From Tritonibacter horizontis (lineage in GTDB: Bacteria; Pseudomonadota; Alphaproteobacteria; Rhodobacterales; Rhodobacteraceae), in contig NZ_LPUY01000138.1 of the NCBI RefSeq assembly GCF_001518015.1, forward strand, positions 124,001-188,000: DNA of 64,000 bases, in the 5' to 3' direction. Positions 5,147 to 61,288 of the stretch are shown one piece after another. The position numbers and the translations under genes are program-made. Within the stretch, counting starts at the first letter, position 1; each line of letters starts with the position of its first letter. The notes below the pieces were generated by a model, which had not been told where the DNA came from, searched no databases, and saw nothing but the letters and a program-made list of their open reading frames with translations.

Positions 5147-5413
5147 GATACGCCCCAGCTGCCTCATTTGCCGCAACCCTATCGCGCTCCCGCGACAGAA
5201 GGAACCGCTTTTGCGTGCCCTTTGACGCAAGCCGCCACAGGTGGCCGCTCGCCGGGGGGCCTCGGGGGGTGGCAAGCTTTAAATCGCCGTTTTCATGCCA
5301 CCTGCGATCGCAAGTGCAACTGACTAAAAAGAAGAAACAAAATTCAAGAGGCACCACATGGAACGCGCGCCCAATGCTCTGGCTCTCTCGGCCAGGTGCC
5401 GCATACGCATGTT

Positions 5414-6292
5414 TCACACGAGAAAATTCTGAACCTCACGCGATTGGCCTTCGAGACATTTCCGCATTTTCTGAAACGCGGCGGCTTCCAGCTGCCGGAC
5501 GCGCTCTTTGGACAACCCCAGCTCATTGCCGAGGCTCTCTAGCGTTCTGGGATCTTCCCTCAGCTTACGCTCTCTGACAATGAACCGCTCGCGCTCGTTC
5601 AATCCATTCAGCGCCGTGATCAACCACTCGCGCAACTGACGGGTGTCATGATCGCTTTCCACACGCTCCGCAGCCTGTTCGCTGTCATCTTCCAGCGCAT
5701 CAATCCACTCTCGCCCATCCTCATCAGCCGATTGCACGGCGTTGAGCGAGAAATCGGCGCCGGCCAGACGACCATCCATCATCTCGACATCGCGGAGCGG
5801 AACGCCAATCTCGACCGCGATCATTTGTTGCAGCTTGTGACGGTCCAGCGAGACCCCTTCGGTCTGCGCCTCGCGCTCCAGCTGAGCCTGCACGCGTCGC
5901 ATGTTGAAGAACAGGGATTTTTGCGACGACGTCGACCCGGTGCGCACCATGGACCAATTGCGCATCACATAGTCCTGGATAGATGCCTTGATCCACCAGA
6001 CCGCATAGGTTGAAAACCGCACGCCACGATCCGGGTCGAATTTTTCGGCGGCTTTCATCAAGCCAAGCCCGGCCTCCTGGATGAGGTCATTCATCGGCGC
6101 GCCGTATCGTCTGAATTTCGATGCCATCGAAACGGCCAGGCGCATATAGGCGGTGATAAGTCGGTGCAGGGCCTGGACATCCCGTTCGTCTCGCCAGGCG
6201 TAGGCCAGGGCCAACTCGGTTTCCGCATCCAAAAGCTCAGCCTTCATGGCCCGCTTTGGGAGGGGGTTTTCAGAGGAATCGTCCAGTGCCAT
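5414..6292 (-). CDS. rpoH2: RNA polymerase sigma factor RpoH, RpoHII type
   Basis: Alternative heat-shock/stress sigma factor of 292 aa. Region 2 is clear (LIQEAGLGLMKAAEKFDP, RFSTYAVWWIKASIQDYV). The RpoH box is present as QKSLFFNMRRVQ, and region 4 ends with a helix-turn-helix (LGLSKERVRQLEAAAF). The N-terminus lacks the YLxEIRKFPML segment of RpoHI and starts with AELLDAETELALAYAWRDE, which fits RpoHII of Rhodobacter. In Rhodobacter sphaeroides RpoHII is transcribed by RpoE during singlet-oxygen stress. I did not find a convincing RpoE promoter upstream here. Divergent from cobU. Confidence 0.9.
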   Translation of the reverse strand: MALDDSSENPLPKRAMKAELLDAETELALAYAWRDERDVQALHRLITAYMRLAVSMASKFRRYGAPMNDLIQEAGLGLMKAAEKFDPDRGVRFSTYAVWWIKASIQDYVMRNWSMVRTGSTSSQKSLFFNMRRVQAQLEREAQTEGVSLDRHKLQQMIAVEIGVPLRDVEMMDGRLAGADFSLNAVQSADEDGREWIDALEDDSEQAAERVESDHDTRQLREWLITALNGLNERERFIVRERKLREDPRTLESLGNELGLSKERVRQLEAAAFQKMRKCLEGQSREVQNFLV

Positions 6293-34806: not shown

Positions 34807-34876
34807 TTTGATTGACCAAACCTTAAGCATCCCACTACCGTGTCTGCACAACATCCAGACATCAGGGAGGATTAGG

Positions 34877-41453: not shown

Positions 41454-42347
41454 ATGCGCAAGAAGGTCACCAAAGCAATTTTCCCGGTTGCCGGACTTGG
41501 AACCCGGTTTCTGCCCGCAACCAAATCCGTTCCCAAGGAGATCATGACGCTGGTGGACCGCCCGTTGGTTCAATACGCCATCGACGAGGCCCGCGCGGCC
41601 GGGATCAAAGAGTTCATTTTCGTCACCTCGCGCGGCAAAGGCGCGCTGGAAGATTACTTTGACCATTCGCCCGTCCTGGAGCAAGAGCTGCGCAAGAAGG
41701 GCAAGGATGAGCTACTGGACATCCTCAAGGACACCAATATGGACTCCGGCGCGATCGCCTATATCCGCCAGCATCAGGCGCTTGGCCTCGGGCATGCGGT
41801 CTGGTGCGCGCGCCGCCTGATCGCCAACGAACCCTTTGCCGTTATCCTGCCCGATGACGTGATCGCGGCTGAAAAACCCTGCCTGCAGCAGATGATCGAA
41901 GCCTATGAAGAGACCGGTGGCAATATGGTTGCAGCGATGGAAGTGGCGCCGGAACAGGCGTCATCCTACGGGGTGCTTGATGTCAAAGAGGACATGGGCA
42001 AGATCGTTTCCGTCGCCGGAATGGTGGAAAAACCAAAAGCCGGAGAAGCCCCGTCCAATCTGGCGGTCATCGGGCGTTACATTCTGACCCCGTCGGTAAT
42101 GAAGAACCTAAAACAATTGAAAAAGGGATCTGGCGGCGAGATCCAGCTGACCGACGCAATCGCGCAGAACATCGGCCAGGAAGACCCGGTTTACGGCTAT
42201 CGATTTGAAGGCAAACGCTTTGACTGCGGCTCCAAGGCCGGGTTCCTGCGGGCGACGGTCGCCTTTGCCTTGGCGCGCGACGATCTGCGCGACGACCTGA
42301 TGGCCTATGTCAACAACATCGCCCTGAACGCCAGCGCTGCCGAATAG
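41454..42347 (+). CDS. galU: UTP-glucose-1-phosphate uridylyltransferase
   Basis: Makes UDP-glucose from UTP and glucose-1-phosphate, feeding surface polysaccharides and glycosylation. At 297 aa it is a normal GalU. The nucleotidyltransferase signature is AIFPVAGLGTRFLPATKSVPKE at the N-terminus (partly quoted) and LPDDVIAAEKP appears mid-protein; KRFDCGSKAGFL lies near the end. The ATG at 41454 has GGAG upstream; longer starts run through the preceding terminator. A UDP-glucose pool could also serve the GpgS-like enzyme at 48074. Confidence 0.96.
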   Translation: MRKKVTKAIFPVAGLGTRFLPATKSVPKEIMTLVDRPLVQYAIDEARAAGIKEFIFVTSRGKGALEDYFDHSPVLEQELRKKGKDELLDILKDTNMDSGAIAYIRQHQALGLGHAVWCARRLIANEPFAVILPDDVIAAEKPCLQQMIEAYEETGGNMVAAMEVAPEQASSYGVLDVKEDMGKIVSVAGMVEKPKAGEAPSNLAVIGRYILTPSVMKNLKQLKKGSGGEIQLTDAIAQNIGQEDPVYGYRFEGKRFDCGSKAGFLRATVAFALARDDLRDDLMAYVNNIALNASAAE

Positions 42348-46914: not shown

Positions 46915-47301
46915 GCAACGTTCCTTTTTTGCGTCTTGCAAGGTGATACCCGCTTCGCTCCCCCGCGCCAAGCGGAGCACGCACAACACCGCAGCATCGC
47001 GGCAAAAACGCCGAAAACATCAATTCCCCGAAATCCGAAAAATCATCCTTAGGTTGAATTTCGATCTAAAGGTTTGCCGCTCAGCCTCCGTCACCCTAAG
47101 AACCGTCGCGGATCAGATTACATCGCATTTTCTCCGCCGGTCCCCTCCGCCTCTGACCAAGGACCGACCTCTAGTGCACAAAAAATACGCGCTTCTTACG
47201 CAAAATAGGCATAATGTGATAAAATGCAGGTGCCCGTCATTTGCCTCTCGCTGTTGGCGTCCTAAGCTTTGTGTAAGGCCCGAACAGTAAAGAGGCGTCT
47301 C
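46915..47301. other. Divergent intergenic region before the glucosylglycerate genes
   Basis: A 387-base gap between the FAH-family gene (minus) and the HAD phosphatase gene (plus). It includes an AT-rich patch at about 47180-47230 (TACGCAAAATAGGCATAATG and then GATAAAATG) that is the most promoter-like part. No coding region or clear operator was found. Confidence 0.5.
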
Positions 47302-48081
47302 ATGCACCAGCTCCTTGTTTTCAGTGACCTTGACGGCACTTTGCTGGACCATGATACCTACGACTATGGCCCGGCTCTGCCAGCAATCGCGCGGATCAAA
47401 GCGCTTGGCGGGCTTCTTATTCTCGCCAGCTCAAAAACCGCATCTGAAATTTCACCTATACATCAAGAACTTGACCTAGGGGATGCGCCGATGATTGTCG
47501 AAAACGGCGCCGCCTGTGTGCGTGCATCGGCCATCGGGACGCAAGATGCCGACTATCGCGCCATCCGGCAGGTCCTGCGGACTCTCGATGCGCCCTTTCG
47601 CGGGTTCGGTGACATGAGTGTCGAGGAAGTCAGCGAACAGACAGGTCTGTCCCCCGACGCAGCAGAGCGCGCCAGAGCACGGCAATTCAGTGAACCCGGT
47701 CTCTGGCACGGGGACGCGCATCAGCGGGCTGGTTTCCTCGCAGCCCTCGCCCGGCATGGCATCACTGCGCGCGAGGGCGGCCGGTTTCTGACGCTTTCGT
47801 TTGGCGCCACAAAAGCAAATCAAATGCAACGCATGCGCGAGCAGCACGCCCCCTGTTTCACCATCGCGCTTGGCGATGCCCCGAATGATACGGAAATGAT
47901 CGCCTCTGCGGATCGGGGCGTCGTGGTCCGCAATGACCATAGCCCTCAAATGCCGATTTTACCGAACGAACAGCACGTACTGCGCACCGAATTACCCGGC
48001 CCTTCGGGCTGGTGCGCCGCGATGTTTCAGCTCCTCGCGGAGTGGGACGACAACGAGAAAGGAACCGCCTCGCATGGCTGA
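47302..48081 (+). CDS. HAD phosphatase, glucosyl/mannosyl-3-phosphoglycerate phosphatase type
   Basis: A 259-aa HAD-superfamily phosphatase (Cof/MPGP type). The nucleophile motif is FSDLDGTLLDHDTYDY (Asp at residue 9), motif II is ILASSKTA and the metal motif is GDAPNDTEMIASAD. Length and motifs fit mannosyl-3-phosphoglycerate phosphatase. The coupled downstream gene encodes a GpgS-type synthase, so the likely job is dephosphorylating glucosyl-3-phosphoglycerate to glucosylglycerate, an osmolyte. It overlaps that gene by eight bases. The ATG at 47302 has GAGG upstream. Confidence 0.85.
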   Translation: MHQLLVFSDLDGTLLDHDTYDYGPALPAIARIKALGGLLILASSKTASEISPIHQELDLGDAPMIVENGAACVRASAIGTQDADYRAIRQVLRTLDAPFRGFGDMSVEEVSEQTGLSPDAAERARARQFSEPGLWHGDAHQRAGFLAALARHGITAREGGRFLTLSFGATKANQMQRMREQHAPCFTIALGDAPNDTEMIASADRGVVVRNDHSPQMPILPNEQHVLRTELPGPSGWCAAMFQLLAEWDDNEKGTASHG

Positions 48082-49300
48082 TTTTCACCAGAACGGCAAT
48101 ATCGCCCAATTTCACAACCTGCGCAGCCGCCCGGTGGAAGAGCTTGAGTATGAACTGTCAACCTTTGCCCAGACCCGCAAGATTTCACTGATCCTGCCCT
48201 GTCTCTATTCCGAACTCGAAGGCCCTGCCCTGGGTCACATCCTCGAAGAACTGGCCAAGGTTCCCTATCTGCACCACATCGTGATCGGTCTGGACCGGGC
48301 CTCCGAAGCGGAATATCGCCACGCGCGGCAGTTCTTTTCGGTCCTGCCCCAGAGCCATCGCGTGCTTTGGAACGACAGCCCGCGCATGCTGGAACTTGGC
48401 GCGCAACTGAACAAGCAAGGGCTCGCGCCGCCCGAACCCGGCAAGGGCAAGAACGTCTGGTCCTGTATCGGCTATCTTCTGGCCAATGCGGAAAGCTCCG
48501 TCGTTGCAATACATGATTGCGACATCACCACCTATTCCAAGGAAATGCTCGCCCGGCTGGTCTACCCGGTGGCCCACCCTGCGTTTTCCTATCAGCTTTC
48601 CAAGGGGTTCTATGCCCGCATCGGCGGTGGCAAACTGAATGGGCGGGTGTCGCGACTGCTCGTTTCGCCCCTGCTGATCGCGCTCAAACGCACGATTGGA
48701 GACCGCGATTACATCGATTACCTGCGCAGCTTTCGCTATCCTTTGTCGGGGGAAATGGCCATGCGGACGCCGCTGCTGCCGGATTTGCGCATCCCGTCAG
48801 ACTGGGGGCTGGAAATTGGCGTCCTGTCCGAGGCATGGCGCAATCTTGGCCGCAAGGCCGTCTGCCAGGTCGAGATCGCCGACAACTATGACCACAAGCA
48901 CCAGACCCTCAGCCCCGAGGACGCCACAGCGGGTCTGAACCGGATGTCGACCGACATCTGCAAGGCGATTTTTCGCAAGCTGGCCGCCGATGGCACCGTT
49001 TTCACCCCGAATGTCTTTCGCACGCTCAAGGCGACCTATTACCGTTCCGCGCTGGATTTGCTGGAGGCCTATTCACATGATGCCATCATGAACGGGCTTG
49101 AAATGGACCGCCACGGCGAGGAAAAAATGGTCGAATTGTTTGCCAACAATATCATGACAGCCGGCCAGGTGTTTCTGGAAAACCCGCATGAATCCCCCTT
49201 CATTCCGAACTGGAACCGCATTCACTCCGCCAATCCCACCTTTCTGGGCGACCTGAAGGCCGCAGCCCTTGCGGATGATGCGGAATTCGCAACGCCCTGA
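48074..49300 (+). CDS. Glucosyl-3-phosphoglycerate synthase-like glycosyltransferase
   Basis: A 408-aa cytoplasmic GT-A glycosyltransferase. The nucleotide-sugar metal motif is VVAIHDCDITTYSKEMLAR (DxD type), followed by YQLSKGFYARIGGGKLNGRV and LLVSPLLIALKRTIG, which I associate with proteobacterial and cyanobacterial GpgS proteins (family GT81). GpgS transfers glucose from an NDP-glucose to 3-phosphoglycerate. The coupled phosphatase upstream and the convergent phosphorylase downstream agree. Mannosyl specificity cannot be ruled out from sequence. Confidence 0.85.
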   Translation: MADFHQNGNIAQFHNLRSRPVEELEYELSTFAQTRKISLILPCLYSELEGPALGHILEELAKVPYLHHIVIGLDRASEAEYRHARQFFSVLPQSHRVLWNDSPRMLELGAQLNKQGLAPPEPGKGKNVWSCIGYLLANAESSVVAIHDCDITTYSKEMLARLVYPVAHPAFSYQLSKGFYARIGGGKLNGRVSRLLVSPLLIALKRTIGDRDYIDYLRSFRYPLSGEMAMRTPLLPDLRIPSDWGLEIGVLSEAWRNLGRKAVCQVEIADNYDHKHQTLSPEDATAGLNRMSTDICKAIFRKLAADGTVFTPNVFRTLKATYYRSALDLLEAYSHDAIMNGLEMDRHGEEKMVELFANNIMTAGQVFLENPHESPFIPNWNRIHSANPTFLGDLKAAALADDAEFATP

Positions 49301-49331
49301 GGGTTTGAACGAAGTCACAGCGGCGCCTCCC

Positions 49332-51083
49332 TTACCGGCGGCGCCCCCGGTTTGTGATCCAGCGACACTGATAGGGTGCAAGCGACGTTACGCCCTCGGC
49401 TTCGAACGCCTCGCCCGTCAGCAGGTCGTACCAGTCTTCGCCCTCGATCAGGTTCAACGCGGCCGGTGGCAAGTCAATCTCATCGGCGCTGACATTGTGA
49501 AGGGCAAAGATGGATTGCGACCGGTCCAACGACTGGCGCCAAAGCCCGAACACCCGATCATCCAGTTGCAATGTGAACTGCGTCGCGTTCGGATGGAACG
49601 CCGGCTGGCGTGCCCGCAAACGCAGGCGCGTGGACAAAGCCGACAGGACCTGTGCCTGCTCGGTCTCCGGATCGTCCAGCCGTGCCATCAGTTCGGGATA
49701 ATCCCAACGGTGCCGATTGATCGCCCGGTTCATGCCGCGACGCTCCACTGCCTCATGGTCGTTCGGGGTCGCCAGCATCGCGTGTATATAGAAGGCCGGA
49801 ATGCCTTCCAGACTCATCGGGATGGTTTGCGAACAGATAAACCGCGCGATTTTCAGATCATCTGGTCCGTCAAAGGTCCGGGACATGGCATCAAAGAAGG
49901 TACAATTCACCTCATACGGCGCCTCGCCTCCCCCCGGCAACGACCGCATCGACACGACGCCGCCGCTGTCACGAATGGTGTCGATCATCTGGTCGACCGC
50001 CTCTTGCGGCAGCACACCCTCGGCCGGCCGCATCCCGATGCCGTCATGGCTCGCGGTGAAATTGAGATAGGCGCAACCAAGCGGCGCCGGTGGCATCGCC
50101 CGGGCCCATTTCAACAGGTACGCAACCGACCCCGCCATCATCGCATGCAGGATCAGCGGCGGCAGCGGGAAGTTATAGACAACATGGGCCTCGTTGCGAT
50201 TGCCGAAATAGCTCAGGTTCTCGGCCCGCGGCACATTGGTTTCCGTCAGCAACACCACCGTCTCTGTCGCGTAATCGGCCAACAGGCGCAACAGCTGCAC
50301 GATCGCGTGGGTCTCCGGCAGATGGATGGAATTGGTTCCCACCTTTTTCCAGATGAAGGCAACCGCATCCAGGCGGATGATCCGCACCCCCTGGTCGATG
50401 TGCATCCGGATGATGCGCAGGATCTCCAGCAGAACCTCCGGGTTTTCAAAGTTCAGATCCACCTGGTCGTGACTGAACGTACACCAGACGTGTTTGGCGC
50501 CATTTGCGGTTTCGACCTCTTGCAGCAGCGGGGTGGTCCGCGGGCGCACCACTTCGCTTAGGTCATCCGAGGGATCGGCCTCGTAGAAAAACCGGTCAAA
50601 GGGCGGCTGCCCCTGCCGATAGGCGTTGAACCATGGGCTTTGCGACGACACGTGGTTCAGCACCATATCCGACATCAGGTGGAACGCCGCGCCGATCCGG
50701 CGAATATCCGCCCAGTCTCCCAGTTCGGGATTCACCTTGCGATAATCCGTGACCGCAAAACCGTCATCCGAGGTGAACGGGAAAAACGGCAGGATATGAA
50801 CCCCGTCCACCACCCCCTTCATGTGCCGCAGCAGGAAATCATGCAGCAGGTCCAGCGGCTTGTGCGCACCGTCCACAATGGAATTGCCATACGTGATCAG
50901 CAGCGCATCCGCCTCTGACCACAATCCGTTGCCCGGCACACGCGGGCGCTTGCGCCGGTGGGTCTCCTCCGGCCAAAAGGCTTCCACGACCTTGGAGGCC
51001 AAAATTTCACTGTCCAGCTCTGGATAGATTTCGCACAAAAGCCGTGACAGGCGGGCCCCGAACGACGCGCTGCCTGATGCCAT
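49332..51083 (-). CDS. GH13 sugar phosphorylase, probable glucosylglycerate phosphorylase
   Basis: A 583-aa GH13 enzyme of the sucrose-phosphorylase-like group (GH13_18 type). Catalytic residues are visible: nucleophile Asp239 in IRLDAVAFIWK, acid/base Glu281 in LLTETNVP and Asp347 in TASHDGIG. The N-terminal part (LLITYGNSIVDG, VHILPFFPFTSDDGF) is typical of phosphorylases rather than amylases. It is convergent with the GpgS-like gene, with a 31-base gap. It should split glucosylglycerate with phosphate into glucose-1-phosphate and glycerate. Sucrose or other glucosides are alternatives. Confidence 0.83.
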   Translation of the reverse strand: MASGSASFGARLSRLLCEIYPELDSEILASKVVEAFWPEETHRRKRPRVPGNGLWSEADALLITYGNSIVDGAHKPLDLLHDFLLRHMKGVVDGVHILPFFPFTSDDGFAVTDYRKVNPELGDWADIRRIGAAFHLMSDMVLNHVSSQSPWFNAYRQGQPPFDRFFYEADPSDDLSEVVRPRTTPLLQEVETANGAKHVWCTFSHDQVDLNFENPEVLLEILRIIRMHIDQGVRIIRLDAVAFIWKKVGTNSIHLPETHAIVQLLRLLADYATETVVLLTETNVPRAENLSYFGNRNEAHVVYNFPLPPLILHAMMAGSVAYLLKWARAMPPAPLGCAYLNFTASHDGIGMRPAEGVLPQEAVDQMIDTIRDSGGVVSMRSLPGGGEAPYEVNCTFFDAMSRTFDGPDDLKIARFICSQTIPMSLEGIPAFYIHAMLATPNDHEAVERRGMNRAINRHRWDYPELMARLDDPETEQAQVLSALSTRLRLRARQPAFHPNATQFTLQLDDRVFGLWRQSLDRSQSIFALHNVSADEIDLPPAALNLIEGEDWYDLLTGEAFEAEGVTSLAPYQCRWITNRGRRR

Positions 51084-51341
51084 CTTGTTATTCTCCCACG
51101 TTCCGCGACGCTTTTTTCTCTTTCGCTCAGATGCTTCCGCTGCACCAAGCCATCACTTCCAGTTTAGTCCCAGCCGTCACCCGCCGTAAACCTTCGCCGC
51201 ACAATCTTGCGCCACGCGACAAAAGTTTGACCAATTTGCGGGCATCCCGCAGGACTCTGGCCGCCGCAGCCCTACCATCCCTCTTGCCAACACAGGCGAT
51301 CCACCACCGCAGCCCGACGCATGAAGGGCTTGATCGGCCTG

Positions 51342-51359
51342 ATCGTTAGCGATAACGAT
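51342..51359. promoter_or_regulatory. LacI-type operator candidate 1 before gap
   Basis: ATCGTTA-GCGA-TAACGAT, an 18-bp palindrome perfect except for the pair next to the central CG. Its core TTAGCGATAA is the usual LacI-family layout. It lies 66 bases before the gap start and 258 bases before the divergent phosphorylase. No matching regulator gene is in the window. Confidence 0.6.
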
Positions 51360-51424: not shown

Positions 51425-52429
51425 ATGACCCTGAAAATTGCGATCAATGGATTCGGCCGGATTGGCCGCAACGTGCTGCGTGCCCTTCTGGAAAACGACA
51501 CCGCCGATGTCGAAGTGGTGGCGATCAACGATCTTGCAGCCCCCGCCACCCAGGTCCACCTCCTGAAATACGACAGCGTTCATGGCCGCCTTGCCGCCGA
51601 TGTCGTGGTCGAAGGCGACACCATGAAGGTCGGTCGCCACGAAATCCGCCTGACGGCAATCCGCAACCCGGAGGAGCTGCCCTGGTCCGACGTCGATGTG
51701 GCCTATGAATGCACCGGCCTCTTCACCTCCCGCGAAACCGCCGCGCGGCACCTGAAGAACGGCTCGCAACGGGTTCTGGTCTCGGCCCCCGCGTCCGATG
51801 TGGACCGCACCGTGGTCTTTGGCGTCAACGATGGCGCGCTGACCGCCGAGGATGTGATCGTCTCCAACGCCTCCTGCACCACCAACTGCCTGGCCCCGGT
51901 GGCAAAGGTGCTGGACGACGCCTTTGGCATCAAGACCGGCTACATGACCACGATCCACGCCTATACCGGCGATCAACCCACCCATGACACGACCCACAAA
52001 GATCTCTACCGCGCCCGCGCCGCCGCCCTGTCGATGATCCCGACCTCCACCGGGGCCGCCCGCGCGATCTCCCTGGTGTTGCCGCATCTGAAAGGCCGCC
52101 TCGAAGGCTCCGCGATTCGCGTCCCGACCCCCAACGTCTCGGTCGTCGACCTGACCTTCGTGCCCGAAAAGACGGCCACCGTCGACGGCATCAACGCCGC
52201 GATCAAGGCCGCAGCCGCAGAGGGCCCCCTCAAAGGGATCCTTGGCTACGAAGAGGAACCGCTGGTCTCGATTGATTTCAATCACGACAAACGCTCGTCC
52301 ATCTTTGCCGCACCGCAAACCGCCGTGACCTCCGAAGGTCTGGTGCGCGTTGTCAGCTGGTATGACAACGAATGGGGCTTCTCAAACCGCATGATCGACA
52401 CCGGTCGCGCAATGGGCAAATTCCTCTGA
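51425..52429 (+). CDS. gap: Glyceraldehyde-3-phosphate dehydrogenase, type I
   Basis: A 334-aa GAPDH. The N-terminus IAINGFGRIGRNVLRAL binds NAD(P), and the catalytic cysteine lies in SNASCTTNCLAP. The NDL acidic residue after the second strand favours NAD. VSWYDNEWGFSNRM is the usual C-terminal segment. Its product route makes 3-phosphoglycerate, the acceptor for the nearby GpgS-like enzyme. Marine Rhodobacterales often carry two gap genes, and this may be one of them. The ATG at 51425 gives the standard start. Confidence 0.96.
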   Translation: MTLKIAINGFGRIGRNVLRALLENDTADVEVVAINDLAAPATQVHLLKYDSVHGRLAADVVVEGDTMKVGRHEIRLTAIRNPEELPWSDVDVAYECTGLFTSRETAARHLKNGSQRVLVSAPASDVDRTVVFGVNDGALTAEDVIVSNASCTTNCLAPVAKVLDDAFGIKTGYMTTIHAYTGDQPTHDTTHKDLYRARAAALSMIPTSTGAARAISLVLPHLKGRLEGSAIRVPTPNVSVVDLTFVPEKTATVDGINAAIKAAAAEGPLKGILGYEEEPLVSIDFNHDKRSSIFAAPQTAVTSEGLVRVVSWYDNEWGFSNRMIDTGRAMGKFL

Positions 52430-52537: not shown

Positions 52538-53173
52538 TCAAATCCGAAAGAACGGCTGCAACAGGCGCGGCACCAGGGATCGGAACCGCAGCGACGCATC
52601 GGTGACCGCCAGACAGATGCAGGCCGGTCCGTCCTCAGCCACCGGCTCATGCTCCAGCTCGCCGTCCGCAACCTCCACATCGCCGACGCCATATCGGCCG
52701 GTCTCATCCCGGAATGCGCCCTGCAGCACCATCGTCAGCTCCAGACCATTGTGCCCGTGATCCGGCACCCCCTGCCCGCCAGGAATATATAGCAACCGCG
52801 CGCTTCCCTCGGCGGTGTGGCTGAGGATCATCTGCCGCACACCCAGACCGAGCGGTTTCCATTTCGGCGGCAATCCCCGCAGCGCCGCCATCACCGGGGC
52901 GGGAAATATGCCCGACCGGTGATAGGTTTTCTCGGCGGCGACCGGGGCGTCCAGCCCGTCAAGCACCCGTGCGCGCAGATCTTCGGCGACAGTTTCGCTC
53001 GGGGTCTCCTCCAGCAACGTGCCGCCCAGCGCCTCATGCGCCTCAAGCTGGGCCCGACAGTCGTCACACATCGACACATGCGCAGCCACGGCCAGCGAGA
53101 ATACCGACGACAGGCTGCCCGCCGCATAGGCAATCAGCAGCTCGTCCGGAATATGGTGGGTAATGGCGGTCAT
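52538..53173 (-). CDS. chrR: Anti-sigma factor ChrR
   Basis: A 211-aa zinc anti-sigma factor that holds RpoE inactive. The anti-sigma domain has histidines at 6-7 and the H-x3-C-x2-C motif in HVSMCDDC (His32, Cys36, Cys39), aligning with ChrR of Rhodobacter sphaeroides. The C-terminal cupin domain keeps its metal ligands (His138, His140, Glu144, His174), offset by three residues from the R. sphaeroides positions I recall. The cupin is needed for the singlet-oxygen response. The start overlaps the rpoE stop as ATGA, so the pair is coupled. Confidence 0.95.
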   Translation of the reverse strand: MTAITHHIPDELLIAYAAGSLSSVFSLAVAAHVSMCDDCRAQLEAHEALGGTLLEETPSETVAEDLRARVLDGLDAPVAAEKTYHRSGIFPAPVMAALRGLPPKWKPLGLGVRQMILSHTAEGSARLLYIPGGQGVPDHGHNGLELTMVLQGAFRDETGRYGVGDVEVADGELEHEPVAEDGPACICLAVTDASLRFRSLVPRLLQPFFRI

Positions 53174-53778
53174 TTGCGATCCGTTCCCTTCAATTCATGA
53201 CGCAGCTTTTCCAGCCCCAGCCGAATTCGTGATTTGATCGTGCCAAGTGGCAATCCAGTCTCCGCCTTGATCTCTGCATGGCTCAGCTCGCCAAGATAGG
53301 CCCGCTCCACCATCACGCGTTGCGCCGGTTTCAGCCTCTTTAGCGCCGCCCGCAACGCGCGTGTTTCCTGTTCCAATGCCAGGACTTGCGCGGCGTCGAC
53401 ATCGGTTTGCTCGACCTGGCGCAGCTCTTCCGGCACCGGGCGGCGCTCTTTGCGCACAATGTCGATCTGACGGTTGCGCGCAATCTGAAAAATCCAGGCC
53501 GCCACCTGCGCCCGCCCCGGATCAAACAGATCCGCCTTGCGCCAGACCGTCAGCATCACGTCCTGCACGATGTCCTCAGCCTGTGCCGCAGGCAGACCGG
53601 AGCGGCAAATCATGCCCTTCAGACGCGGTGCGAAATGATCGAACAGCCGACCGAAGGCCACTTTGTCCCGGTGATCTCGCACCGCCAGCATCCACATTGT
53701 CGTCTCGGCGTAATCCTTGCCCGTCACCTTGCTGCGCTCCCCGGCACGATTTGCGCCGCTGACCACCGTAGCGGTCAA
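53170..53778 (-). CDS. rpoE: ECF sigma factor RpoE (ECF11)
   Basis: Extracytoplasmic-function sigma factor of about 202 aa that directs the singlet-oxygen response when ChrR lets go. Region 2 shows FGRLFDHFAPRLKGM and VTVWRKADLFD-like core residues (ours reads LTVWRKADLFDP), and region 4 ends LPLGTIKSRIRLGLEKLRH. I chose a TTG at 53778: it has a strong GAGGAGG five bases upstream, and the proposed promoter would start transcription near 53822, leaving little leader for the ATG at 53820. The gene is divergent from the lipid-modification operon. Confidence 0.93.
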   Translation of the reverse strand: MTATVVSGANRAGERSKVTGKDYAETTMWMLAVRDHRDKVAFGRLFDHFAPRLKGMICRSGLPAAQAEDIVQDVMLTVWRKADLFDPGRAQVAAWIFQIARNRQIDIVRKERRPVPEELRQVEQTDVDAAQVLALEQETRALRAALKRLKPAQRVMVERAYLGELSHAEIKAETGLPLGTIKSRIRLGLEKLRHELKGTDRK

Positions 53779-53824
53779 CGGGCCCTCCTCAAGAACAAGA
53801 TCTGCTTCAGCTTCGAACATGTTG

Positions 53825-53854
53825 AAAATACGCCACGCCATGGCCACTGGATCA
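53825..53854 (-). promoter_or_regulatory. Candidate RpoE-dependent promoter of rpoE-chrR
   Basis: On the minus strand TGATCC (53854 down to 53849), 18-base spacer, then TATTTT. The -35 matches the RpoE box known from Rhodobacter (TGATCC, as I recall it); the -10 is only a partial match to TAAGA. It would let RpoE activate its own gene. Confidence 0.5.
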
Positions 53855-53915
53855 AAAAAATCTCGCGACGCGGCAGGTCGGCACATCGGGTGATCCGCCT
53901 TTTCTTTTCTCTTTT

Positions 53916-53946
53916 TGATCCGAACCGGCCCATTGCATCGTAAGCT
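53916..53946 (+). promoter_or_regulatory. Candidate RpoE-dependent promoter of the oxidoreductase operon
   Basis: TGATCC (53916-53921), 19-base spacer, TAAGCT (53941-53946). This is close to the Rhodobacter RpoE consensus (TGATCC, about 18 bases, TAAGA, from memory). It would start transcription about 15-20 bases before the chosen ATG at 53969. A second TGATCC at 53891 has no matching -10. Confidence 0.65.
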
Positions 53947-53968
53947 TCTGAAAATGGATGGAGATTAC

Positions 53969-55279
53969 ATGTCGTTTGATGCGCTGACCTCACCCCGCCG
54001 CCGGATCGCGATCATCGGCGGCGGAATTTCCGGCCTGGCGGCGGCCTGGCTTCTGGGGTCACGCCAGGATGTGACCCTGTTTGAAGCCGCCCCGCGCTTT
54101 GGCGGTCACGCGCGCACGGTGATGGCCGGGATCCGGGGGGATCAACCGGTGGACACCGGGTTCATCGTGTTCAACTATGTCAACTACCCCCATCTGACGC
54201 GCATGTTTCAGGCACTCGACGTGCCGGTTCAGCGCAGCGATATGTCCTTTGGGGCCACGATCCAGGATGGGGCAATGGAATACGGGCTCAAGGACCTCTC
54301 TGCCCTGTTCGGTCAGCGCAGGAACCTGACCCGGCCTGCGTTCTTTGGAATGGTCCGCGACATTTTGCGGTTCAATGCCCGCGCCGAAGAGATGGCGCAT
54401 GACGACAGCACCACCCTGGGCGAACTTGTCCGCGATCTGGCCCTGGGCGATTGGTTTCAGCGCTACTACCTGATGCCGATCTGCGGTGCCATCTGGTCGA
54501 CCCCACCAGAGGAAATCCGCGCCTTTCCCGCCCGCGCTTTGGTCCGGTTCTTTCGCAACCACGCCTTGCTCAGCGCCTCCGGGCAGCATCAATGGTGGAC
54601 GGTCAAGGGCGGCAGCATCGAATATGTCACCCGGCTCTGCGCGCATCTGCAACGGACCGGGGTTGATCTGCGCCCCGCGACCCCGGTGCGCGCGGTTGAA
54701 CGCGCAGACAACAGTGTCACCCTGCGCCTGTCCGATGGTCGCGCGGAGCGGTTTGACGACGTGATCTTTGCCTGCCACTCTGATGATGCGCTGGCGCTGC
54801 TGGCCCAGCCCACCGCACAGGAGCGCGCCACGCTGGGCGTAATGCGGTATCAGGACAATCACGTCATCCTGCACCGCGACGCCGGCCAGATGCCTCGACG
54901 TCGGGCCTGCTGGTCCTCCTGGGTCTACAAGGCCGATCAGACCGACGACAGGTCGGCCGTCGGCGTCACCTATTGGATGAACAAATTGCAGAACCTGCCG
55001 GAAAGCGATCCTCTTTTTGTGTCCCTGAACCCGGTGCGGGAGGTCAATCCGCAGCTGATCTATGACGATGTCAGTTTTCGCCATCCCGTCTTTGACCGTG
55101 CCGCCGTCCGCGCGCAGGTGCAACTGGGCACGATACAGGGCCAGAACAACACCTATTTTGCCGGCGCTTACCTGCGGCATGGGTTCCACGAGGACGGCTT
55201 TGCCAGCGCGGTTCGCGTGGCCGCCGCCTATGCCGAGGCCGGCCACAACGATCAGGGCGTCGCGCGGGTGTTTGCATGA
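53969..55279 (+). CDS. FAD-dependent amine-oxidase-like oxidoreductase
   Basis: A 436-aa flavoprotein. The FAD-binding motif is IAIIGGGISGLAAAWLL near residue 17, followed by GGHARTV and VDTGFIVFNYVNYPHL. The C-terminal part ends with NTYFAGAYLRHGFHEDG. Close relatives sit next to cyclopropane-fatty-acid-synthase-like genes and are annotated as cyclopropane/cyclopropene fatty-acid synthesis oxidoreductases. In Rhodobacter a related RpoE-controlled gene set is linked to furan fatty acids; the exact step for this protein is uncertain. The ATG at 53969 has a GGAG site. Overlaps the next gene as ATGA. Confidence 0.85.
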   Translation: MSFDALTSPRRRIAIIGGGISGLAAAWLLGSRQDVTLFEAAPRFGGHARTVMAGIRGDQPVDTGFIVFNYVNYPHLTRMFQALDVPVQRSDMSFGATIQDGAMEYGLKDLSALFGQRRNLTRPAFFGMVRDILRFNARAEEMAHDDSTTLGELVRDLALGDWFQRYYLMPICGAIWSTPPEEIRAFPARALVRFFRNHALLSASGQHQWWTVKGGSIEYVTRLCAHLQRTGVDLRPATPVRAVERADNSVTLRLSDGRAERFDDVIFACHSDDALALLAQPTAQERATLGVMRYQDNHVILHRDAGQMPRRRACWSSWVYKADQTDDRSAVGVTYWMNKLQNLPESDPLFVSLNPVREVNPQLIYDDVSFRHPVFDRAAVRAQVQLGTIQGQNNTYFAGAYLRHGFHEDGFASAVRVAAAYAEAGHNDQGVARVFA

Positions 55280-56040
55280 CCCCTGCAAGCAACATATGGC
55301 CAGAACACCTCGCCGGATATACCACCCATGCACGGCGCGGCGGCATCCAGAATGCCTTTCGCTATGGGGTGGACTACGTCCTGATCGATCCGGCCTCTGA
55401 CGCGGGGCCCACCTTGTTTTCGCGCAATGGCTGGAACCTGGCGGCGGTGCACGACAAAAACCACGGCGGCCCGCCCAAGGCCGGGCGCGGGCTGGCCTGG
55501 GCCGAGGAGGTTCTGACGAATGCCGGGCTGACCTGCGCCGGGCTGCGGATCCTGTTGCTCGCTCAACCGAGCTTTTTGGGCTATTGTTTCAACCCCGTCA
55601 GTTTCTGGCTCGCCTATGATGGCGCGACCCTGCGGGCGGTGATCGCCGAAGTGACCAATACCTTTGGCGACCGTCACAGTTATCTCTGTGCAGAGCCGGG
55701 TTTCGCGCCGATCACAGCACATTCCCGCCTGAGTGCACAAAAAATTCTGCATGTGTCCCCTTTCCAGGAGGTCGCGGGCACCTATCGGTTTATCTTTGAC
55801 ATAGGGACAGATCGGATCGCGATCCGAATTTCCCATGACAATGGCACCGACGGCGTGGTTGCAACGCTTGTCGGCAACCGCGCGCCGCTCAGCAATGCCC
55901 GGCTGATCACCGCAACCCTGCGCCGTCCGGCGGGGGCGTTGCGCACCGTCATCCTGATCCACTGGCAGGCGCTCAGGCTCAAACTCAAAGGGGCGCGGTA
56001 TCGCAAGCGCCCGCGTCCGCCGGAACAGGAGGTCAGCTGA
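55276..56040 (+). CDS. DUF1365 family protein
   Basis: A 254-aa protein of the DUF1365 family. Recognisable family stretches are HARRGGIQNAFRYGVDY, SFLGYCFNPVSFWLAYD, AVIAEVTNTFGDRHSYL and KILHVSPFQEVAGTYRF. The biochemical role is not known. DUF1365 genes nearly always lie between the FAD oxidoreductase and the CFA-synthase-like gene, as here, which suggests work on the same lipid. It overlaps both neighbours by one to four bases, so the three are translationally coupled. Confidence 0.9.
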   Translation: MTPASNIWPEHLAGYTTHARRGGIQNAFRYGVDYVLIDPASDAGPTLFSRNGWNLAAVHDKNHGGPPKAGRGLAWAEEVLTNAGLTCAGLRILLLAQPSFLGYCFNPVSFWLAYDGATLRAVIAEVTNTFGDRHSYLCAEPGFAPITAHSRLSAQKILHVSPFQEVAGTYRFIFDIGTDRIAIRISHDNGTDGVVATLVGNRAPLSNARLITATLRRPAGALRTVILIHWQALRLKLKGARYRKRPRPPEQEVS

Positions 56041-57200
56041 TGCTATTCGTTACCAACCGCGTGAAACGCGATTTTCTGGACAGCTGCGCCAAGATCCGGC
56101 GCGGCAGCCTGCGCCTGATCACACCTGAAGGCGAGGTGCATGATTTTGGACAGGGCGCGCCGCAGGCGGAAATGCAGATCAACGACTGGGGCGTGGTCAC
56201 CGCACTGGCCTCGCGCGGCGATATCGGCCTGGGCGAAGCCTATGTGGCCGGCCTCTGGGACACCCCCTCGATCGAGGCGGTCACGCAGGTCGCGCTCCTC
56301 AATCTGGACTACCTTGAGGCCTTTGCCTATCCAAGCCCGCTTGCGACGCTGAAATTCCGCCTTGTGGACCGCCTGCTGCGGGCCAATTCCCGCTCCGGCG
56401 CCAGCCGCAACATCAAGGCGCATTACGATGTCGGCAACGAATTCTACCAACTCTGGCTGGATGACAGCATGACCTATTCCTCCGCCCTGTTCGCACCGGG
56501 CGACAGCCATCTGGAGGATGCACAGCATCGCAAATATGATCGGATCCTGGACCGCTCCGGCGGGGCCGAAAACATATTGGAGGTCGGCTGCGGCTGGGGG
56601 GGCTTTGCGGAACGCGCCGCCGCGCAGGGGCGCCACGTCACAGGCATCACCATTTCACCCAGCCAATATGGTTTTGCAGATGCCCGTCTGGACGGGCGCG
56701 CGGATATCCAGCTGCGTGACTACCGCGACACCAAGGGCAAATTCGATGGGATCGTTTCGATAGAGATGATCGAAGCCGTCGGCGAGCGGTATTGGCCGCA
56801 GTATTTCCAGATGCTGAAGGACCGCCTGTCGGACAGCGGCCGTGCGGTGGTGCAGGCCATTACCGTGCCCGATGCCTATTTCGACATCTATCGCAAAGGC
56901 TCCGACTATATCCGGCAATACACCTTTCCCGGTGGTATGCTGCTGTCGGATGCGATGATCTCGCACCATGCAGAGCGGGCCGGATTGAAGGTGACAGACA
57001 ACTTCGGCTTTGGGCTGGACTATGCCCGAACCTGCCGCATGTGGTCTGAACGCCTGTCAGATGCCTCGGACAAGGTGCTGCGGCTTGGCTACGATCAGTC
57101 CTTTCTGCGCAATTGGCAGTTCTACCTGCAGATCTGCGCCGCGTCCTTTGAAACCCGGCAGACCGATGTCGTGCAGGTGGAGCTGGCCCATGCGCCCTGA
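56040..57200 (+). CDS. Cyclopropane-fatty-acyl-phospholipid synthase family methyltransferase
   Basis: A 386-aa SAM-dependent methyltransferase that acts on the double bond of membrane phospholipid acyl chains. The substrate-side segment is HYDVGNEFYQLWLDDSMTYS, the SAM motif is ILEVGCGWGGFAERAA and the later MIEAVGERYWPQYF fits CFA synthases. In the RpoE context it could make cyclopropane fatty acids or methylate the acyl chain for furan fatty acids. The start overlaps the DUF1365 stop by one base. Followed after 72 bases by the DUF3833 gene. Confidence 0.93.
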   Translation: MLFVTNRVKRDFLDSCAKIRRGSLRLITPEGEVHDFGQGAPQAEMQINDWGVVTALASRGDIGLGEAYVAGLWDTPSIEAVTQVALLNLDYLEAFAYPSPLATLKFRLVDRLLRANSRSGASRNIKAHYDVGNEFYQLWLDDSMTYSSALFAPGDSHLEDAQHRKYDRILDRSGGAENILEVGCGWGGFAERAAAQGRHVTGITISPSQYGFADARLDGRADIQLRDYRDTKGKFDGIVSIEMIEAVGERYWPQYFQMLKDRLSDSGRAVVQAITVPDAYFDIYRKGSDYIRQYTFPGGMLLSDAMISHHAERAGLKVTDNFGFGLDYARTCRMWSERLSDASDKVLRLGYDQSFLRNWQFYLQICAASFETRQTDVVQVELAHAP

Positions 57201-57947: not shown

Positions 57948-59912
57948 TTGCTGAATTCCGTGCGCCTGCGCCTGCTGATCCTTGCCCTCTTGCCGCTGAT
58001 CGTTTTGATGCCGCTCCTGATGGTTCTGGCGATGGCCCGCTGGAATTCGGACTATGACAAGGTCCTGATCGCCAATGTCGAAAGCGATCTTCGGATTGCG
58101 GAACAATACCTTGGGCAACTTCAAAGTAACTCTGCCCGCGCGCTGCAGGGGATCGCGGATTCTGCCCGCCTTGCGGCGTTGATGGCCGGGAACGCCACGG
58201 GACTGGAGATGTTTCTGGCCGAACAACAACAAGCGTTGGAGCTGGACTTTCTCTATCTGCTGGAGGGGGAGACGCTCACACAGGCCAAGGCGAAATGGCC
58301 GGTGATCCATGCCGCCGCTGCCGGTCGCCGGTCGTCGCAGATCGACATCTTTGATGCGGCAGACCTGAAAGCCCGATCTGCCGCTCTGGCAGAGCAGGCC
58401 CGTATCGACCTGATCGACACCGAGGCCGCCATCCCCACAGCGCGCGCGGTCGAGGATCGCGGCATGGTCGTCCATTCTGCCGCGCCGGTCCGTGGCATTG
58501 GTCCTCCGCGCGTGCTGGTCGGTGGGCTTCTGCTCAATCGCAACCTGGATTTCATCGACACCATCAATGCGCTGGTCTATCTGCATGGCCAGTCCGACGT
58601 CAGCCGTCAGGGCACGGCGACATTGTTTTTGGAGGACACCCGTGTCTCGACCAATGTACGTCTGTTCGAGGATGTCCGCGCCCTGGGCACCCGTGTGTCC
58701 GCCGCCGTGCGCGCTGCCGTCCTGACCCAGGGGAAAACCTGGCTGGACCGGGCCTTTGTCGTCAACGACTGGTATATTTCCGGCTACCTTCCGCTGACGG
58801 ACAGCTTTGGAAAACGGGTGGGCATGCTCTACGTCGGCTTTCTGGAATCGCCGTATCAAACCGCCAAACGTGCCGCCTATTGGACCGTTTTCGGCGCCTT
58901 CGTTTTTGTCATCGCCCTGTCAGTGCCACTGTTTTTGTGGCTGGCCAAAGGCATTTTCGCCCCGCTTGAACAAATGACGCAGACGATGGAACGCGTGGAA
59001 CGCGGCGACCTGACGGCCCGCAACGGCACCCGCGGGCGCAGCGACGAAATCGGCCAGGTTGCCGCCCATCTGGACAGCTTGCTGGACCAGGTGCAGGAAC
59101 GCGACCGGCGGCTGCGCAATTGGGCGGACGAATTGAACGCCCGTGTGGAGGAGCGCACCAGCGAGTTGCAAGTCGCCAATGCCAAGCTGGAGGAGACCTT
59201 TCGCCAATTGGTGATGAGTGAAAAGCTCGCCTCGATCGGCGAGATCACAGCCGGCGTAGCCCATGAGATCAACAATCCCGTTGCGGTCATCCAGGGCAAT
59301 GTCGACGTGATGCGCATGACCCTTGGCACGGCGGCGGACCCGGTGCGCACAGAATTGGATCTGATCGACAATCAGGTCATGCGGATTGGTGCCATTGTCG
59401 GCAAGCTGCTCCAATTCGCCCGGCCATCAGAGTTTGGCACCTTTGCCGAAAGCGTCGATATCGCCGCAGTGGTTCAGGACTGCCTGGTCCTGGTGGACCA
59501 TGTGATTTCGCGGCAGGAAATCCGGGTCCTCACCCAGTTTGAGGACACGCCGACGGTCCATATCGACCCCGGCGAATTACAACAGGTGGTGATCAATATC
59601 ATCATCAACGCCAGTCAGGCGATGGAGGGGCGCGGAACGCTTGCGATCTCACTGACCGCCGAAGACCGCGATGGCATCCCCGGCGCCGCCCTGCGCATTG
59701 CCGATACCGGGCCGGGCATTCCGGCGGATCGATTCGACCAGATTTTCGATCCGTTCTTTACCACCAAACGCGGCGAAGGCACCGGCCTTGGGCTGTCGAT
59801 CAGCCAGACCCTGATCCAGCGGGCCGGGGGGCGGGTCAGCGTGCGCAACCGCCGTGCGCGCGGCGCGGAGTTCCTGCTCTGGCTGCCTGAACGGTCTGCA
59901 ATTTTCGACTAG
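57948..59912 (+). CDS. Sensor histidine kinase with Cache sensing domain
   Basis: A 654-aa membrane kinase. TM1 spans about residues 8-30, the periplasmic Cache-like sensor about 31-300, TM2 about 308-330, then HAMP (FAPLEQMTQTMERVERGD), a coiled coil and the kinase core. The phospho-histidine lies in ITAGVAHEINNPVAVIQGN near residue 437; the ATPase domain has INASQAMEGRG and TGLGLSISQ. The likely start is a TTG with a GGAGGAG site. It is convergent with the NtrC-like regulator gene, which is its probable partner, and lies near formate dehydrogenase genes. Confidence 0.92.
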   Translation: MLNSVRLRLLILALLPLIVLMPLLMVLAMARWNSDYDKVLIANVESDLRIAEQYLGQLQSNSARALQGIADSARLAALMAGNATGLEMFLAEQQQALELDFLYLLEGETLTQAKAKWPVIHAAAAGRRSSQIDIFDAADLKARSAALAEQARIDLIDTEAAIPTARAVEDRGMVVHSAAPVRGIGPPRVLVGGLLLNRNLDFIDTINALVYLHGQSDVSRQGTATLFLEDTRVSTNVRLFEDVRALGTRVSAAVRAAVLTQGKTWLDRAFVVNDWYISGYLPLTDSFGKRVGMLYVGFLESPYQTAKRAAYWTVFGAFVFVIALSVPLFLWLAKGIFAPLEQMTQTMERVERGDLTARNGTRGRSDEIGQVAAHLDSLLDQVQERDRRLRNWADELNARVEERTSELQVANAKLEETFRQLVMSEKLASIGEITAGVAHEINNPVAVIQGNVDVMRMTLGTAADPVRTELDLIDNQVMRIGAIVGKLLQFARPSEFGTFAESVDIAAVVQDCLVLVDHVISRQEIRVLTQFEDTPTVHIDPGELQQVVINIIINASQAMEGRGTLAISLTAEDRDGIPGAALRIADTGPGIPADRFDQIFDPFFTTKRGEGTGLGLSISQTLIQRAGGRVSVRNRRARGAEFLLWLPERSAIFD

Positions 59913-59938: not shown

Positions 59939-61288
<1,350 letters not shown>

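Follow-up and report, generated by a model that had tools for sequence, protein, structure and literature searches.

A three-gene cassette in Tritonibacter horizontis probably forms a cycle of glucosylglycerate synthesis and phosphorolysis, with both arms, gpgP-gpgS and ggaP, predicted to be NtrC (nitrogen-limitation) targets. It lies in a 64 kb window (the whole stretch of DNA that was analysed), and the assignment of its products as enzymes that would make glucosylglycerate and take it apart is well supported by their sequences. Linkage of such a phosphorylase to pathway genes is already in print (PMC7178133); the new part is the regulatory prediction, and literature searches found no description of a ggaP gene placed tail-to-tail with gpgP-gpgS and accompanied by NtrC-like upstream sites. 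The features are:

47175..47191: NtrC-like site before gpgP, 127 to 111 bases ahead of the start; 15.2 bits with the glnB/glnK matrix
47302..48081, plus strand: gpgP, predicted HAD-IIB phosphatase of the mannosyl/glucosyl-3-phosphoglycerate phosphatase family, 259 aa
48074..49300, plus strand: gpgS, predicted GT81-like glucosyl-3-phosphoglycerate synthase, 408 aa
49332..51083, minus strand: ggaP, predicted GH13_18 2-O-glucosylglycerate phosphorylase, 583 aa; D239, E281, D347; TETN 280-283; PYE 389-391
51228..51244: NtrC-like site before ggaP, 161 to 145 bases ahead of the start; 10.8 bits with the glnB/glnK matrix
51425..52429: gap, divergent from ggaP

In the proposed cycle, GpgS would transfer glucose from a nucleotide sugar, most likely UDP-glucose, to 3-phosphoglycerate; GpgP would strip the phosphate to give glucosylglycerate; and GgaP, using phosphate, would convert this to glucose 1-phosphate and D-glycerate, the latter returning to glycolysis via a glycerate kinase encoded elsewhere in the genome, where a gene of the glycerate 2-kinase family could serve. 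Metabolite levels would set the direction of flux.

NtrC-like sites upstream of both arms

Only three sites of at least 8 bits occur in the 64 kb window, and two of them stand before gpgP and ggaP, strengthening a hint of nitrogen limitation in the sequence-only reading. The ggaP site, which also lies about 180 bases ahead of the divergent gap, keeps its core in two close relatives amid a diverged region (11.5 bits in L004, but just 7.3 in the same-genus genome G305). No second site at about 20-base distance is present in the window, and a scan for sigma-70 promoters and terminators led nowhere, with no sigma-70 consensus promoter found.

Across relatives, a simple word count already picks out the pattern: TGCC-N9-GGCA occurs upstream of 12 of 78 ggaP genes, as against 6-8 for the best gapped word in five Markov-resampled sets, and has the same form as the Paracoccus NtrC consensus YGCMNNNNTTNNTRGCA; mutation of the NtrC site before Paracoccus nasT abolishes up-regulation on nitrate or glutamate (PMC5424462). 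With this consensus as the seed, a matrix was built from regions upstream of two core NtrC targets, glnB (29) and glnK (11 only, because at 19 of the 30 amt loci the stretch showed no PII gene). Sites of at least 8 bits precede 35/78 ggaP and 23/63 gpgP genes, compared with 10/127 control upstreams (p 4e-11 for ggaP; weaker, p 0.001, for gpgP), the controls coming from a greedy ORF caller with some starts wrong; resampled sequences give 19/390 and 11/315, and thresholds of 6, 7 and 9 bits paint the same picture. These counts include the window and omit L043, L065 and L077 (ggaP) and L047 and L055 (gpgP), where the start was not reached or fewer than 200 upstream bases were available. By k-mers, 76 of the 78 ggaP upstreams are distinct, the loci being nonetheless related. 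The signal extends to two plasmids outside the 80 loci compared: in Qingshengfaniella, a 16.8-bit site precedes ggaP, and sites of 10.1 and 11.4 bits precede the galU of a galU-gpgP-gpgS array, but one of 10.0 bits falls inside ggaP; in Leisingera, an 11.5-bit site precedes gpgP. On the AT-rich Pseudoalteromonas locus L179 the matrix is unusable, as it gave 11 sites in 15.7 kb.

Could the cassette simply run a plain osmolyte cycle, in which glucosylglycerate is synthesised in response to salt stress and GgaP removes it upon dilution, free of direct NtrC control, and the sites either belonging to another regulator (e.g., NtrX) or acting in some species only? Glucosylglycerate is a known osmolyte (PMC11009771), and a site is missing from about half of the promoters: among 61 loci with both promoters, 27 carry no site of at least 8 bits at either end and 17 carry one at both. 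The pairing of sites also differs from that of glnB, in which 22 of 29 promoters have a second site at 18-22 bases (pairs exactly 20 apart), as against 1/35 for ggaP and 4/23 for gpgP. Yet the matrix derives from glnB and glnK, and the density of its sites in the two upstream regions (2.12 per kb) is 24 times that of the remaining 1.24 Mb of these 80 loci (0.089 per kb). Half-site spacing is strict: at the native spacer, the fraction of upstreams with half-sites is 0.49 for ggaP, 0.38 for gpgP and 0.16 for controls, compared with 0.03-0.18 at ten other spacers, and 0 of 300 column permutations reached the observed mean. In some genera, moreover, ggaP stands immediately behind urease genes (3 of 80 loci plus the Leisingera plasmid), and the T. 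horizontis genome also encodes an ectoine synthase, so that glucosylglycerate would not be its sole osmolyte. On balance, we regard the plain osmolyte cycle as doubtful.

One candidate for such another regulator is NtrX, which may bind a pattern similar to these sites: GCA-N9-TGC, described for NtrX and for the NtrC family (PMC7240162), shares its register with the sites upstream of ggaP and gpgP. Against this, ChIP-seq of NtrX in R. sphaeroides mapped it to six places, of which five are cell-envelope genes and the sixth is its own operon, and revealed no nitrogen role (PMC7240162). The NtrC candidate of T. horizontis, a 465 aa protein, is the best match in the genome to TIGR01818 (393.5 bits, below the 558.6 cut-off) and lacks GAFTGA, as reported for Rhodobacterales (PMC10274813); it adjoins an NtrX-like regulator, the names NtrB, NtrY and NtrX being given here from gene order.

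The urease-linked loci L033, L056 and L073 have no site of at least 8 bits near ggaP or gpgP. The idea that ggaP rides there on an NtrC-type urease promoter was dropped because urease promoters score below 8 bits (7.8 in L056, 6.6 in L178 and below 0 in L073). A text search of the Paracoccus transcriptome paper for glucosyl, glycosyl, sugar or phosphorylase came back empty.

Distribution and gene neighbourhood

The cassette is widespread in the family. Among 295 family genomes, ggaP (E<=1e-100) is found in 73 and gpgS (E<=1e-60) in 73; 69 have both, as compared with ~18 expected under independence (relatedness ignored). The two genes share a stretch at 67 of 80 loci and are convergent in 66 of these 67. 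Their stops are a median of 4 bases apart, and 24 pairs overlap, but control convergent pairs (n=110) also overlap often (35%; median 34.5 bases); thus, the tight 3' ends were rejected as a special feature, and the conserved orientation alone counts. In Rhodalgimonas zhirmunskyi, a related bacterium, a GH13_18 gene with TETN and PYELN motifs and a GT81 gene were treated as genus-related singletons, with a possible glucosylglycerate phosphorylase noted (PMC10608839); here, they emerge as a widespread module. The ggaP and gpgS of R. zhirmunskyi are on separate contigs.

Conservation does not extend to gap and galU, which the sequence-only reading had cast as suppliers of related metabolites. A gap homologue is present at 2 of the 80 loci (92% and 42% identical) and a GalU match (E<=1e-20 over half its length) at none, some loci ending early at contig ends; both genes were therefore rejected as functional neighbours. 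In the window, the GalU domain (41466-42254, above the GalU cut-off) is about 5 kb from gpgP rather than the 6 kb proposed, and a second GalU above the cut-off is encoded elsewhere in the genome, in which a profile search found no glgC above cut-off. One plasmid relative does have the order galU-gpgP-gpgS.

An uptake role, in which GgaP would mainly consume external glucosylglycerate and be unrelated to the synthesis pair, is suggested by a distant copy of the gene and by two further loci. All four genomes that have ggaP only are among five with a distant ggaP copy (44-46% identical); in the fifth, G236, gpgS stands in tandem with the distant copy. The distant ggaP of L101 is surrounded by genes for LacI, an ABC transporter and a glycerate kinase-like protein, the last about 6 kb off beyond those for LacI, the ABC permease and the ABC ATPase; a Meiothermus plasmid has a comparable arrangement that includes a glucosylglycerate hydrolase-like gene, and E. 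coli ycjM sits among ABC genes. For the T. horizontis cassette, which adjoins no transporter gene, such a role is quite improbable given the co-inheritance of ggaP with gpgS (69/73) and their shared stretch. The distant copies offer an independent pointer to glycerate as the product: besides L101, a glycerate 2-kinase-like gene is divergent from and adjoins the distant ggaP at L103 (the kinase model is below cut-off in both). In Pseudoalteromonas donghaensis, an apparent operon encodes a D-glycerate 3-kinase-like domain fused to GpgP, followed by GpgS and GgaP.

Enzymes of the cassette

The gpgP and gpgS frames overlap by 8 bases (48074-48081) and ggaP converges on them, exactly as first read, coordinates and frames included; because each of the three has close homologues in many genomes, these frames are not chance. 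GpgP belongs to the subfamily defined by NCBIfam TIGR01486 (176 bits, above the 164.75 cut-off), scores 336.6 bits against NF001216 (below the cut-off of 353) and has PDB relatives 1xvi and 3ztw. GpgS matches NF040724 GpgS_Meth with 327.8 bits (E 8e-98), short of the equivalog cut-off of 700. A fold search with its AlphaFold model (pLDDT 87.6) returned mycobacterial GpgS at PDB ranks 1-35, three of which bear just the title "mycobacterial protein," and the putative DxD metal site, D148-C-D150, is invariant in 34/34 aligned sequences and matches the DSD of mycobacterial GpgS.

GgaP has all three catalytic residues attributed to it at the outset: D239, E281 and D347 are invariant in 15/15 aligned relatives, including E. 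coli YcjM (38.6% identical), and in 80/80 named relatives. Published fingerprints of glucosylglycerate phosphorylases are (T/S)ETN at β-strand 5 and, in loop A, Glu where others have Gln (PMC7178133); GgaP and 80/80 relatives have TETN, and Y390-E391 is likewise present in 80/80, preceded by Pro in 68/80. By contrast, GgaP scores 200.4 bits against the sucrose phosphorylase model TIGR03852 (cut-off 334.4), and its loop A, GEAPYEVN, does not match the N(L/V)D(I/L/V)YQ of sucrose phosphorylases. Catalytic triad, TETN and loop-A Glu are thus common to GgaP and the GH13_18 2-O-glucosylglycerate phosphorylases (EC 2.4.1.352) of Meiothermus silvanus, Spirochaeta thermophila and E. coli (YcjM); known members have glucosylglycerate-pathway neighbours (PMC7178133), as at this locus. 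The core of the sequence-only reading, a locus that makes and phosphorolyses glucosylglycerate, stands on the GpgS/GpgP pair and these fingerprints, shorn of gap and galU. That the product is another glycoside, e.g., mannosylglycerate, and that the phosphorylase acts on something else is very improbable: the phosphatase profiles are named for mannosyl-3-phosphoglycerate, and mannosylglycerate and mannosyl-3-phosphoglycerate synthases appear from rank 36 of the fold search, but the synthase is nearest GpgS by sequence and fold, and GgaP has the TETN and loop-A Glu fingerprints.

Nitrogen limitation and the role of glucosylglycerate

The two-step synthesis proposed for this cassette operates in other GpgS-GpgP pathways, including those of marine cyanobacteria, Persephonella and Methanococcoides; here, a phosphorolytic arm is added, and NtrC is the predicted regulator. 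According to the title of a 2012 report by Behrends, free glucosylglycerate is said to be a marker of nitrogen stress in mycobacteria. Cyanobacteria are reported to use glucosylglycerate under nitrogen limitation (Klahn 2010 as cited in PMC11009771, PMC12636525), and mycobacteria degrade it as they recover from being starved of nitrogen (PMC11009771), albeit with a hydrolase, whereas the phosphorylase would yield glucose 1-phosphate, not free glucose.

How would the cassette serve T. horizontis? We infer that NtrC binds these sites and activates, rather than represses, the genes: under nitrogen limitation, gpgPS and ggaP would be expressed together, and glucosylglycerate would act both as a nitrogen-free anionic solute replacing glutamate and as a store from which glucosyl and glycerate units can be regained, perhaps the rapidly mobilised reserve that had been suggested at first. 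More tentatively, across the Rhodobacteraceae, the making and phosphorolysis of glucosylglycerate may form one NtrC-controlled unit. Under nitrogen limitation, it would provide a buffer of anions and carbon that contains no nitrogen and can be recovered; the phosphorylase would be made beforehand (in some genera from a gene behind those for urease), freeing glucose 1-phosphate and glycerate as soon as nitrogen returns.

What glucosylglycerate phosphorylase does in metabolism is, according to a review, still without experimental confirmation (PMC7178133). Should both arms be under NtrC, its role becomes a directly testable nitrogen response; an NtrC-controlled unit, if real, would supply the in vivo role that the field lists as unsettled, and a connection of glucosylglycerate with nitrogen shortage, so far drawn for cyanobacteria and mycobacteria, would then also cover many marine heterotrophs.

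The cassette and its enzymes

Which reactions can the three clustered genes support? The sequence-only reading had placed a phosphatase, a GpgS-like glycosyltransferase and a converging GH13 phosphorylase in one locus, and the window's coordinates and frames bear out both presence and layout:

gpgP, 47302-48081, + strand, mannosyl/glucosyl-3-phosphoglycerate phosphatase family
gpgS, 48074-49300, + strand, full-length match to the GpgS_Meth model (E 8e-98)
ggaP, 49332-51083, - strand, GH13 enzyme near the GH13_18 phosphorylases with solved structures

In profile searches, the gpgP product exceeds the TIGR01486 subfamily threshold and falls slightly under the cut-off of the nearest equivalog model, and the gpgS product falls far under the strict cut-off of GpgS_Meth. 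A fold search with an AlphaFold model of GpgS (34 sequences in the input alignment; mean pLDDT 87.6) returned mycobacterial GpgS structures at ranks 1-35, with mannosylglycerate synthase lower. Glucosylglycerate phosphorylases carry two fingerprints, (T/S)ETN at strand 5 and a Glu in loop A (accessible text of PMC7178133); GgaP has both (TETN 280-283; PYE 389-391) and shares the TETN and PYE motifs with the characterised E. coli YcjM (38.6% identity over 554 aligned positions), while it stays under the sucrose phosphorylase model threshold and lacks the sucrose phosphorylase loop motif. A scan for ggaP relatives gave at least 577 matches, of which the best 80 were retained and are therefore the nearest; among these best 80 of at least 577, TETN and Y390-E391 are conserved in 80/80 and the preceding Pro in 68/80. 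Families, fingerprints and fold thus support glucosylglycerate synthesis and phosphorolysis as the probable activities. Judged from sequence, the enzyme side is of an already described type, because PMC7178133, in the text available, gives the fingerprints and the gene company (such genes often lie beside glycerate kinase, GpgS or GpgP genes) and the accessible part of PMC10608839 points out these motifs in Rhodalgimonas, along with a GT81 gene.

Distribution and partners of the probable cycle

Among the best 80 of at least 577 relatives, gpgS shares the locus with ggaP in 67/80 and gpgP in 64/80; where gpgS and ggaP are both present, they converge in 66/67 loci and stand in tandem in 1/67. 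Thirteen loci lack an adjacent gpgS: in 12 of these, whole-genome search found gpgS elsewhere (12/12), and the remaining stretch (L045) ends in a partial gpgS. Across 295 genomes of the family, strict E-value limits gave ggaP in 73, gpgS in 73 and both in 69. Within the same best 80, the 8-base gpgP-gpgS overlap is exact in 23/64 loci and the flanks vary; gap and galU, taken earlier for meaningful neighbours, lose that standing, with a gap homologue in 2/80 loci and GalU in 0/80. Against 110 control pairs, the short distance between the gpgS and ggaP 3' ends is ordinary. One genome (G025:C1) holds a complete gpgS-ggaP pair and, ~140 kb off, a second, partial one.

The company of further ggaP copies lends separate support to the proposed chemistry. 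Four of the 295 genomes have a ggaP-like gene without gpgS, and these copies are distant (44-46%); a fifth distant copy (genome G236, locus L109) stands in tandem with gpgP-gpgS. All four gpgS-less loci (L101-L104) were inspected. At one of them (L103), a glycerate 2-kinase-like gene adjoins ggaP divergently; at another (L101), LacI, ABC permease and ABC ATPase genes are present and a glycerate 2-kinase-like gene lies ~6 kb off (both kinases score under the cut-off); at a third (L102), an ABC ATPase ~6.7 kb off is the only confirmed neighbour. On a plasmid of Pseudoalteromonas donghaensis (L179), a longer first gene (4009-5751) precedes gpgS and ggaP; its N-terminal part resembles D-glycerate 3-kinase structures (E 7e-20) and its C-terminal part matches the phosphatase, so that all cycle steps would lie in one apparent operon. 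Elsewhere in the Tritonibacter genome lies a gene of the glycerate 2-kinase family. Because this genome holds two GalU copies and no ADP-glucose pyrophosphorylase above cut-off, UDP-glucose is favoured as the donor for GpgS; in Qingshengfaniella, galU lies immediately 5' of gpgP. A Meiothermus taiwanensis plasmid carries, one after another, genes for LacI and an ABC transporter, then a glucosylglycerate hydrolase-like gene (403 bits, cut-off 550) and a ggaP-like gene: two routes for breaking one glycoside.

NtrC-like sites upstream of both arms

A word count over 200 bases 5' of ggaP in the window and 77 relatives found TGCC-N9-GGCA in 12/78, against 6-8 for the best gapped word in five Markov-resampled sets; ungapped 7-mers showed no enrichment there. 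The word also occurs in 4/63 gpgP upstreams. It has the form of the Paracoccus denitrificans NtrC consensus, YGCMNNNNTTNNTRGCA; mutating the NtrC site upstream of nasT abolished up-regulation on nitrate or glutamate (both from the accessible text of PMC5424462). At least 10 of the 11 consensus positions are matched in 12/78 ggaP, 6/63 gpgP and 5/29 glnB upstreams, and in 3/127 control and 15/390 resampled ggaP upstreams.

An NtrC matrix was seeded by the published consensus on 250 bases 5' of glnB (29) and glnK (11) and refined solely on these 40 regions, with ggaP and gpgP sequences left out. With this matrix, 22/29 glnB upstreams show a second site at a distance of exactly 20 bases, arguing that these are genuine NtrC sites in tandem. 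Sites of at least 8 bits occur in 35/78 ggaP and 23/63 gpgP upstreams, against 10/127 controls (starts assigned by a simple ORF caller) and 19/390 and 11/315 resampled sequences. Half-sites at the native spacer are found in 0.49 (ggaP) and 0.38 (gpgP) of upstreams versus 0.16 of controls, and at ten other spacers in 0.03-0.18; the mean site score was reached by 0/300 column permutations. The sequences share kinship, though 76/78 ggaP upstreams are distinct. With one exception, ggaP sites lie 89-179 bases 5' of the start, and gpgP sites 73-153; density is 2.12 per kb in the ggaP/gpgP upstream windows versus 0.089 per kb in the other, mostly coding 1.24 Mb of the same loci. The whole 64 kb window has three sites of at least 8 bits:

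47175, 15.2 bits, 5' of gpgP
51228, 10.8 bits, 5' of ggaP and also of the divergent gap
34813-34829, 13.7 bits, near the start of a putative ABC binding protein frame beside a LacI-type frame

Two close relatives (L004, 11.5 bits; G305, 7.3 bits) retain the core of the ggaP site amid diverged surroundings, and ggaP-upstream sites are retained in relatives without gap. Directly 5' of gap, a palindrome, CGTTAGCGATAACG (51344-51357), is conserved in the window and the same two relatives; it resembles a LacI-family central-carbon operator. At 52538-57200, a ChrR anti-sigma factor and an ECF sigma factor accompany three genes, one cyclopropane-fatty-acid-synthase-like; the three-gene block reappears near the cassette in L065.

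Nitrogen context and the owner of the sites

The ggaP start overlaps the end of ureG or lies within a few bases of it in two genomes, Marinibacterium profundimaris (L056) and a MAG (L073); two Leisingera loci, one in Leisingera sp. JC1 (L033) and one on the L. methylohalidivorans plasmid (L178), have ~113 bases between ureG and the following ggaP. The matrix scan found no ggaP site of at least 8 bits in L033, L056 or L073, and the urease promoters within the sequence covered score only 7.8 (L056), 6.6 (L178) and below 0 (L073); urease linkage therefore supports a nitrogen context, not NtrC itself. Outside the 80 loci, the Leisingera plasmid has an 11.5-bit site 5' of gpgP, and the Qingshengfaniella plasmid a 16.8-bit site 5' of ggaP, two (10.1 and 11.4 bits) 5' of the operon-heading galU and one (10.0 bits) within ggaP. 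Where ggaP and gpgP are split, sites of at least 8 bits are retained at 6/12 gpgP and 4/12 ggaP genes; the scan found them at 0/4 ggaP-only loci and, weakly (8.5 bits), at 1/4 gpgS-only loci. The tandem locus L109 has a 10.8-bit site near the gpgP start.

An NtrC-family regulator of the Tritonibacter genome (393.5 bits, under the cut-off of 558.6) has no GAFTGA loop and lies near an NtrX-like regulator; the missing loop agrees with a Rhodobacterales NtrC acting with sigma-70 (PMC10274813, in the part available). The window itself encodes an NtrC-family response regulator without GAFTGA (60134-61234, - strand), near a long, putative sensor kinase frame (57948-59912). NtrX may instead own the predicted sites, since its published pattern stands in the same register (accessible text of PMC7240162). 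About half of the promoters have no 8-bit site, 27/61 loci have none at either end, and tandem pairs are seldom found at ggaP.

What would such control achieve? Co-activation of both arms suggests turnover steered by metabolites; alternatively, NtrC could repress one arm. The literature covered on glucosylglycerate together with NtrC, NtcA, Roseobacter, Rhodobacter or urease, in which subscription journals are thinly represented, yielded no description of this regulatory link. Nitrogen control of the cassette is a new prediction, computationally well supported, and it opens the in vivo role of glucosylglycerate phosphorylase to experiment.
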